Assembly: GCA_017415555.1 (NCBI GenBank)
Contig: JAFQGF010000050.1
Span: forward strand, 1-41,048
Reading direction: 5' to 3'
DNA length: 41,048 nucleotides
From: Akkermansia sp.
GTDB lineage: Bacteria; Verrucomicrobiota; Verrucomicrobiia; Verrucomicrobiales; Akkermansiaceae
The position numbers were made by a program, and so were the translations under genes. Shown piece after piece: positions 26,101 to 27,527 of this stretch (position 1 is the stretch's first letter; each line of letters opens with the position of its first letter). The notes under the pieces are model-generated. The model was not told the origin of the DNA. It searched no databases and saw only the letters and a program-made list of their open reading frames with translations.

Positions 26101-26132
26101 GCCCGGTATCGCTTAAATAGCCAAAACTTTAA

Positions 26133-26167
26133 GGCCGCTGTTCACTGAGTGGAACAGCGGCCTTTTT
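26133..26167 (+). terminator. Intrinsic terminator of the phosphofructokinase gene
   Basis: GGCCGCTGTTC (26133-26143) pairs perfectly with GAACAGCGGCC (26152-26162), followed by TTTTT (26163-26167). Confidence 0.9.
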
Positions 26168-26169
26168 GA

Positions 26170-26450
26170 GTGCGACCGACTCGATATGCGCACTGCGATG
26201 AAAGTCCGCGCGGAGCCGCTATGGTGCGGAATCCCAGACCAGAAGAACAAAGCAGCCGACGGCTGTAAGGCTGATTAGCCAAACACAGAGTGTTTGCCCC
26301 TGCAAGGGTGAGTGCCCGTGGGGCGGGCGTGAAGCAACTGCGGGGGGGTAACGAACCGTGGGAAAGGAAGTTCGAGGGGAAATCCCGACTGTACGAACAG
26401 AAATTGTATATAAGGCCGGAAGGATGGAAGAGGTTGCCAAAGTGCCGAAA
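26170..26450 (+). mobile_element. Group II (IIC-like) intron 5' remnant, no ORF
   Basis: The sequence begins GTGCGACC, the usual group II intron 5' end, two bases after the T-run of the phosphofructokinase terminator. Group IIC introns are known to insert directly after terminator hairpins. Domain I-like features follow: a stem capped by GATGAAAGTCC (26208-26218) like the GGGUGAGAGUCCC element of IIC introns, the short stem-loop GGCTGTAAGGCTGATTAGCC, and the tract GCAAGGGTGAGTGCCCGTGG. At about 26407 comes TATATAAGGCCGGAAGGATG, then GAAGAGGTTGCC. This order resembles my memory of the Oceanobacillus iheyensis intron. No domain V and no reverse transcriptase were found, so the element is probably truncated. 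The 3' limit is only approximate. Confidence 0.5.
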
Positions 26451-26519
26451 TTCGATACATCATTTCCGAATTTACCGCAGACTCGTTTCCAAATGTTGAG
26501 ACTACCAATAAGCAGGTAT

Positions 26520-26536
26520 CAGCATTCTCTATGCTG
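26520..26536 (+). repeat. Inverted repeat arm, left
   Basis: CAGCATTCTCTATGCTG is the exact reverse complement of the right arm at 26666-26682. Each arm is itself a small hairpin (CAGCAT/ATGCTG) whose 5-nt loop is inverted between the copies (TCTCT and AGAGA). Confidence 0.75.
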
Positions 26537-26604
26537 TATTTGCGAGAAAAATCGAAACATAAATACGTTAGAGTAACTCAGCACTCTTAAAACGTCCTTA
26601 GATG

Positions 26605-26637
26605 AAAATTATTCATCCTGTGCAAGTGAATAATTTT
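26605..26637. terminator. AT-rich hairpin within the inverted-repeat segment
   Basis: AAAATTATTCA (26605-26615) and TGAATAATTTT (26627-26637) form a perfect 11-bp stem. Its 3' side runs into TTTTT (26634-26638). It is weak because it is AT-rich. It could stop read-through into the downstream gene, or bind a protein. Confidence 0.45.
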
Positions 26638-26659
26638 TAATGATATTCCGACTTTTCGC

Positions 26660-26688
26660 TTGCATCAGCATAGAGAATGCTGTATACT
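26660..26688 (+). promoter_or_regulatory. Promoter of the PEP-CTERM gene with repeat arm as spacer
   Basis: TTGCAT (26660-26665) and TATACT (26683-26688) are separated by exactly 17 nt, and those 17 nt are the right inverted-repeat arm. The -35 matches 3 of 6 positions and the -10 matches 5 of 6. The -35 lies inside the segment bounded by the repeats and the -10 lies outside it. Confidence 0.5.
26666..26682 (+). repeat. Inverted repeat arm, right
   Basis: CAGCATAGAGAATGCTG, exact reverse complement of 26520-26536; the two arms flank a 129-bp segment. Confidence 0.75.
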
Positions 26689-26792
26689 ATGCTCAGCGAC
26701 TCCGGACTGATAATCGAGTCTCCCATCGCGCGAGGGGACGGACGAACCAGAAAGAGTCATCTCTAACCACACAAAAACAAAATCTTACAATC

Positions 26793-27527
26793 ATGAAAAA
26801 GCACATAATCACTCTCTTGATGCTGTCCGGCGTTTCTATGGCAGCTGAACAGCAACTCACGCTGGAAACGACCAGTAACATGCATTTTGATGAATCTAAA
26901 GGATTTTATCTGGATGATAGTAATTCCGGCATAAAATGGAGCGGCGGGAGCAGCGGTGATAGTTTGACTTCATGGAAGCTGGCTTTCACCTACACCGCGG
27001 CGGAGTCGATTTCGGCGCCGGCGCGTCTGTTTGGCACCAATGGTGGTGGTAGCGCTGCAGGATATACCATCGATGTTATTAGTACTAAGCAGATTTCATT
27101 TAACTGGTACGATGTTAAAGGTATTGGTACTCTTAGTGATGTTACGGTTACTGCGGGGCAGGCTGTCGACATTGTTTTGACGTTTGTTGCAGATGTGAAG
27201 TTGGTGAATGATGTTGAGAACGTGGTGGGTGGTACTTATACTCTGTTTGCTTCCACTACGGATGCCAATAAGATTACTACAAGCAACTCGCTTTCATATT
27301 CCATCGAGGCCGTAGGGAGCAATACATTAGAAAACGCTATTGCTGCGTCAGATTTGGAATACGCTAATAAATCAAGATTGTGGGTTACACAGTCATCTAT
27401 AGATAATGGAGAAATTTCCAACATTGCCTTGTACAAGTTGGAGGATAGACTCATCCCCGAACCCACCACGGCCACGCTTTCCCTGCTGGCTCTCTGTGGC
27501 CTAGCCGCACGCCGTCGTCGCAAGTGA
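26793..27527 (+). CDS. Secreted PEP-CTERM sorted protein
   Basis: An exported, probably surface-anchored protein of 244 residues; its function is unknown. The ATG at 26793 starts a signal peptide (MKKHIITLLMLSGVSMAA). An upstream open frame to 26640 runs through the promoter and is not used. The middle is Ser/Gly/Thr-rich and predicted all-beta, compatible with a LamG/concanavalin-like lectin fold (ARLFGTNGGGSAAGYTIDV). The C-terminus is a PEP-CTERM signal: PEP at residues 222-224, a hydrophobic stretch (ATLSLLALCGLAA) and RRRRK. An exosortase would process it; none is in the window. A strong terminator follows. The upstream promoter may be phase-variable (see findings). Confidence 0.75.
   Translation: MKKHIITLLMLSGVSMAAEQQLTLETTSNMHFDESKGFYLDDSNSGIKWSGGSSGDSLTSWKLAFTYTAAESISAPARLFGTNGGGSAAGYTIDVISTKQISFNWYDVKGIGTLSDVTVTAGQAVDIVLTFVADVKLVNDVENVVGGTYTLFASTTDANKITTSNSLSYSIEAVGSNTLENAIAASDLEYANKSRLWVTQSSIDNGEISNIALYKLEDRLIPEPTTATLSLLALCGLAARRRRK

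Follow-up and report, generated by a model that had tools for sequence, protein, structure and literature searches.

Our study reports on a predicted split promoter in a gut Akkermansia sp., in which a short putative recombination site doubles as the promoter spacer. The window, which is the whole stretch of DNA analysed here (41,048 nucleotides, contig JAFQGF010000050.1 of assembly GCA_017415555.1), is contig C65 of our genome G000, an assembly of 2.0 Mb that is 79% complete. From sequence comparison we consider it highly probable that positions 26520-26682 constitute an ON/OFF promoter switch for the gene at 26793-27527, and that this switch is likely flipped by a tyrosine recombinase. Previous knowledge of phase variation in Akkermansia concerns the human species and a single motif; the second and third motifs described below distinguish other groups within the genus.

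A predicted split promoter in front of a PEP-CTERM gene

The features of the element and of its predicted target are as follows.

26520-26536, no strand: left arm CAGCATTCTCTATGCTG, predicted recombination site with half-sites CAGCAT/ATGCTG and centre TCTCT
26537-26665, no strand: invertible interior of 129 bp, predicted to be in the ON orientation at present
26537-26542, minus strand: hexamer CAAATA, read from the sequence, which would take the -35 place after inversion (OFF)
26660-26665, plus strand: -35 box TTGCAT, abutting the right arm; the position of TTG is conserved across elements
26666-26682, no strand: right arm CAGCATAGAGAATGCTG, predicted recombination site and 17-nt promoter spacer, from the exact repeat and the box positions
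26683-26688, plus strand: -10 box TATACT, outside the invertible segment; the position of TA...T is conserved across elements
26683-26792, plus strand: leader, 110 nt from the arm and including the -10 box; predicted 5' UTR with a hairpin, from length conservation and stem complementarity
26793-27527, plus strand: gene for a PEP-CTERM protein of 244 aa, the predicted target of the switch, from PF07589 and NF038120 profile scores

The two arms are 17 nt long, lie 129 nt apart and are 100% complementary as inverted repeats, as a first-pass annotation of this DNA had described. Each arm reads CAGCAT-N5-ATGCTG, and because the half-sites are palindromic, only the centre, TCTCT on the left and AGAGA on the right, reveals the orientation of an arm. 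The same annotation had recognized that the right arm is exactly the 17-nt spacer between TTGCAT and TATACT, and that inversion would bring CAAATA to the place of the -35 box; the coordinates of boxes and arm agree with both statements. The promoter so formed aims at the open reading frame starting at 26793. TTGCAT shares three of its six bases with the sigma-70 -35 consensus, and a promoter scan of the window sequence did not report the TTGCAT/TATACT site. Read outward, the bases flanking the arms are ATACCT on the left and TATACT on the right, which bears out an earlier caution that the repeat does not extend beyond the arms; outer flanks of this kind fit a -10 box on one side only.

The T-ending hairpin that had been noticed within the segment (26605-26637) does fold in the window sequence (z -2.5). 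Its reading as a conserved terminator was rejected: no pair kept a two-sided change among 12 homologues, and no terminator-like site was found. Upstream of the element, positions 26165-26463 resemble the 5' part of a group II intron (RF02001, Rfam match 26342-26510, 30.2 bits with a gathering score of 32). This part lies behind an inverted repeat at 26131-26164, which follows a phosphofructokinase gene, and it has homologues in 51 of 76 Akkermansia genomes, many of which end at 26463 among the matches listed.

The downstream gene had been annotated as that of a PEP-CTERM surface protein, and its profile scores point the same way. The protein, with the C-terminal end RLIPEPTTATLSLLALCGLAARRRRK, scores 20.1 bits against PF07589, just below the Pfam cut-off of 20.7, and 19.6 bits against NF038120 (cut-off 80), the latter over its C-terminal part only.

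Recurrence of the element, matched centres and box positions

We searched 76 Akkermansia genomes for two exact CAGCAT sites 115-145 nt apart and found 55 elements in 26 genomes, five of them in the window's own; a reversed control pattern gave no match in any of the 76. This recurrence, set against the empty control, places the arm pair of the window beyond chance. Three near-exact elements (L233, L234 and L261) were left outside the 55-element counts, and their loops match too. The half-sites are constant and the N5 centre differs among elements; within an element, the two centres are reverse complements of each other in 53 of 55 cases, as compared with a mean of 2.0 and a maximum of 9 in 5,000 shuffles. 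The identical central (overlap) region expected of a pair of tyrosine recombinase sites is thus present in these 53. The first-pass annotation had warned that only the 5-nt loops could prove inversion, a difficulty that the set as a whole resolves. Read from outside, the first centre base is T in all 55 elements. In one genome, G064, the centre TTTGA is common to five of nine elements, which weakens a strict reading of the centre as an address.

The positions of the promoter boxes are held across the set. A hexamer starting with TTG abuts the inner side of an arm at one end in 46 elements, at both ends in 1 and at neither in 8; when TTGA or TTGAC is allowed one base off, exactly one end qualifies in 53 of 55, and the same rule shifted 4 bases inward is satisfied by 7. 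TA...T stands directly outside an arm in 52 of the 55, as against at most 10 at each of the offsets 1 to 8. Since the -35 box abuts the arm on the inside and the -10 box on the outside, the arm is the 17-nt promoter spacer, and promoter function is predicted to depend on the orientation of the segment. If true, this use of the site as spacer would explain how a single conserved 17-bp palindrome serves both the recombinase and RNA polymerase. In seven of the 55 elements, among them L251 (G040:C44), L226 and L252, TA...T is present outside both arms; such elements may be selectors between two genes.

Among the 45 elements with a single -10 flank, a PEP-CTERM-like reading frame starts within 400 nt on the -10 side in 35, and in 4 further elements that side runs past the end of the available stretch. 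The leader, measured from arm to gene start and detected by script, is 107-111 nt long in 32 of 42 cases. An alignment-free comparison of 36 leaders was chosen because RNAalifold, which recovered no more than 7 pairs, 6 of them retaining a two-sided change, misaligned the outer stem. It gave a mean stem score of 16.6, as compared with 13.8 when the 5' and 3' sides were exchanged between leaders (300 swaps, sd 0.48, maximum 15.4). Judged by these scores, a covarying hairpin can form in the leaders; the leader of the window itself does not fold better than its shuffles (z -0.53). By eye, a palindromic loop (GCGCGC, TGCGCA or AGCGCT) is seen near the tip of the leader hairpin.

A recombinase family with adjoining repeats

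That the window carries no invertase gene had been noted before, and it is so: none of the seven PF00589 matches of the genome, which are spread over six contigs, lies on the window's contig, and the serine recombinase profile PF00239 has no match in the 79%-complete genome. A search for a recombinase elsewhere in the genome, which the first-pass annotation had advised, yields a candidate invertase, a tyrosine recombinase of 332 aa at C10:26637-27632, with a repeat of its own upstream that has the CAGCAT/ATGCTG half-sites. In this repeat one outer half-site is degenerate and the first centre base departs from the T seen in every element of the set. When the stretches around the recombinase genes on C10, C40, C63, C62, C54 and C32 were compared, CAGCAT-like pairs with matched centres were found on C10 only. 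A second perfect 17-nt inverted repeat, CATCTTTCGGAATGCTG, with copies 140 nt apart, also lies near the C10 recombinase (G000:C10, L264:4852-5025).

On this evidence we lean towards the C10 enzyme as the invertase. There is a real possibility that a different recombinase acts on the switch, which would otherwise be as described here; examples are the enzymes encoded on C32, C54 and C62, or one that the assembly lacks. Seven PF00589 matches on six contigs leave several enzymes to choose from, and with the genome only 79% complete a further recombinase may be missing. C10-type relatives also occur in genomes that have no such sites: among the matches listed, relatives at 69-71% identity are found in G004, G015, G017, G047 and G049, none of which has a CAGCAT pair, so that C10-type recombinases and CAGCAT pairs do not correspond one to one. 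Against another enzyme stands the restriction of CAGCAT-like matched-centre pairs to C10 among the recombinase stretches of the six contigs. The recombinase genes on C40 and C63 start with AAAGA-type repeats, and that on C62 has no repeat scoring at least 11 at its start; for C32 and C54, CAGCAT-like pairs alone were counted.

The C10 family has matches in 75 of the 76 genomes, with up to 21 matches in one, among those listed. From 96 recombinase loci we tested 79 genes (frame of at least 250 aa, non-identical, at least 230 nt upstream), and 56 of these have an inverted repeat scoring at least 11 at the gene start. The repeats flank 109-163 bp and end between -30 and +60 nt of the frame's first Met. 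The same score was reached in 2 of 158 gene-body controls and in none of 158 shuffled upstream windows, and at a score of 13 the count was 43 genes against no gene-body window, which demonstrates the linkage of such repeats to recombinase genes. Their half-sites are ATGCTG in 26 cases, ATGCT in 7 more, AAAGA in 6 and others in 17. With the type of half-site linked to recombinase genes in this way, the question of the invertase is directly testable.

In 41 of 56 of these recombinase-linked repeats a -10 box lies at the end far from the recombinase, and in 2 at the end facing it, with a background of 5.7%; by sequence, 31 of the 41 would be OFF, 7 ON and 3 are unclear. Because the -10 box is on the far side, such a switch would control the far gene and not the recombinase. 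This is in line with a remark in the accessible part of PMC11892184 that an inverton does not, as a rule, regulate an invertase close to it.

Half-site labels placed on the recombinase tree agree with it partially, requiring 37 changes as compared with a shuffled mean of 44.8; the labels were assigned by text pattern, the 23 of 79 genes that lacked a repeat of score 11 were treated as a separate group, and near-copies inflate the clustering. The AAAGA label clusters (2 changes, as low in none of 500 shuffles), ATGCTG does so less (16 changes, 1 of 500 as low), and the ATGCA and 'other' labels show no clustering (500 of 500 as low). Before the recombinase genes of L299 and L303 there are arms that look hybrid, combining an outer TCTTT-type and an inner ATGCTG-type half-site in one arm. 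Seven aligned recombinases keep R205, K232, D279, R282, H305 and Y315. The Asp at D279 is invariant in this alignment (A2); in XerD-type and most tyrosine recombinases the position is occupied by the His of the HxxR motif.

We scanned ten of the far genes, chosen by eye. The matches include a GtrII glucosyltransferase, a family 2 glycosyltransferase, an HsdM-type methylase, a C5 methylase, two Mrr/ResIII restriction proteins (one with an ISP coupler), a radical SAM protein, an amine oxidase and Sel1/TPR proteins; one gene had no match. Recombinase-linked repeats at L210, L302, L315, L336, L281 and L305 precede restriction or DNA-modification genes (ISP/IIG type, HsdM, C5 methylase) and glycosyltransferases. 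A -10 box beside the arm is present at L281 and L305. By the rule that we applied, it is found at none of the four loci L210, L302, L315 and L336, which weakens the case for their modification-restriction genes as phase-variable.

Both orientations among relatives

The first-pass annotation had proposed comparing related genomes for the two orientations, and both are found. The flanks of L224 (G006) and L228 (G018) are collinear, with 86% identity over 157 bp and 85% over 165 bp, and the interior aligns at 82% over 164 bp in the inverted sense; a comparison of L236 (G065) with L228 agrees. These inversions are between species, and concern an element type other than the window's at a different locus. 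Whether the copies are orthologous or paralogous, their alignments demonstrate that the interior of L224 is flipped relative to its flanks when compared with L228. Orientation was also judged against a single -10 flank, which allowed 48 of 58 elements to be placed. Among these, nine of ten interiors homologous to the window's have the opposite orientation and one (L230) the same. By sequence, 12 of the 55 elements would be ON and 29 OFF, with 14 unscored; in the window's genome, the window element would be ON and the other four OFF. With the segment found in both orientations among relatives and the split promoter held in most of the 55 elements, the invertible promoter first suggested for this site is supported.

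These observations bear on two readings without a switch. A miniature transposon with terminal inverted repeats, which carried a promoter and was inserted before several genes, would account for the scattering of copies, about 160 bp long and inverted at their ends, and for the homology of several interiors; we nevertheless regard it as very unlikely. The ends of a transposon would be constant, whereas the arm centres here vary among elements and match within them, so that the constant terminal repeats of a miniature element are absent. In addition, the -10 box keeps a fixed place outside the repeats, the gene mostly starts 107-111 nt away, and interiors flip between collinear flanks. Least credible of all is a static promoter between paired palindromic operator sites of a regulator, a reading suggested by the palindromic form of each arm and its conserved half-sites, since a regulator needs no exact reverse-complement centres between its two sites and a static promoter would not occur in both orientations relative to the -10 box.

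Our sequence analysis suggests a model for the activity of the predicted promoter switch. A recombinase of the C10 family, most likely the C10 enzyme itself, would pair the two arms, and their matched centres would permit strand exchange between them. Recombination would then invert the 129-bp interior. The -35 box, TTGCAT, which forms the final hexamer of that interior, would thereby be brought up to the stationary -10 box (TATACT) outside it or be moved away from it. In the present orientation the promoter would be complete and the switch ON; in the inverted orientation CAAATA would occupy the -35 place, the promoter would be lost and the switch would be OFF.

Site types across the genus

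The motif CGGATT..AATCCG is that of the A. muciniphila invertons described by Jiang et al. 2019, as quoted in the accessible part of PMC13343947. According to the available portion of PMC11892184, PEP-CTERM genes are enriched near A. muciniphila invertons ('group 138'), and phase variation of the A. muciniphila cps1 locus has been shown by reads, PCR and phenotype (PMC13343947). With an N5 centre and a spacing of 115-145, the published motif was found in none of the 76 genomes. A looser pattern (centre 3-7, spacing 140-170, half of the second arm) was found in 39 of 76, with N3 centres among the matches listed. The window's genome has no match to the CGGATT pattern, and the arms of the window carry CAGCAT/ATGCTG in place of the published half-sites.

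The site types are largely separated among genomes. The CAGCAT pair is absent from all 14 genomes with at least five forward CGGATT matches, and of the 26 genomes with CAGCAT elements, 8 show a CGGATT match once or twice on a strand and the other 18 lack one. A third site type, TCTTT-N3-AAAGA, occurs in 12 of 76 genomes; none of the six genomes with at least three TCTTT elements has a CAGCAT pair, and G064 has nine CAGCAT pairs and one TCTTT-type element. Centres match in all 24 CGGATT elements examined (five genomes), of which 20 have TTG one base from the arm at one end and 9 have TA...T one base outside. Because TTG sits one base off the arm, a 17-nt spacing is possible with the 15-nt CGGATT arm. 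In TCTTT elements (four genomes) the centres match in 19 of 25, the mismatches arising from overlapping pairs of neighbouring sites, and the -35 and -10 boxes are both less regular in this type. At L405, L410, L411, L413 and L414, TCTTT sites stand in tandem with alternating centres such as TCA/TGA.

A. muciniphila is thus already known to have invertons close to PEP-CTERM genes, and CAGCAT and TCTTT are further dialects of site. Neither site is named in the accessible parts of PMC11892184, PMC13343947, PMC3048395 and PMC8278651. As far as our literature searches show, Jiang et al. 2019 being outside them, three things are new: the two dialects CAGCAT and TCTTT, the geometry of the split promoter, and a recombinase family whose genes have repeats beside them. 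We tentatively propose, as a reading that falls just short of an even balance, a genus-wide addressable promoter-switch system with largely exclusive dialects. In such a system the half-sites would name the recombinase, the centre would pair partner sites and the site would be the spacer, and an amplified recombinase family, in which most members have their own adjacent switch, would phase-vary genes for surface proteins and glycans and perhaps for DNA modification.

Comparison with known systems

The fimS switch of E. coli is an element of about 314 bp with the promoter inside, adjoined by the genes for FimB and FimE. Like the switch predicted for the window, it is a promoter segment with short inverted repeats that is inverted by a tyrosine recombinase; unlike fimS, the window's element has no recombinase gene on its contig. 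In the invertible promoters of Bacteroides, at capsule loci, the segment contains the promoter in full and is acted on by the serine recombinase Mpi. Orientation set by recombination at inverted repeats and the control of surface structures are common to these promoters and the predicted switch of the window, which differs in that the -35 box alone lies inside and in that no serine recombinase was found in the genome. By sequence, the nearest solved relatives of the candidate family are Xer-type recombinases (PDB 1a0p, XerD, and 4a8e), the nearest PDB match being a distant one to XerD with a best E of 1.6e-9.

The CGGATT invertons of A. muciniphila differ from the window's element in their half-sites and in an arm of 15 as compared with 17 nt. 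They belong to the same genus, have short palindromic inverted repeats that enclose 144-167 bp and, according to the accessible part of PMC11892184, likewise have PEP-CTERM genes nearby.
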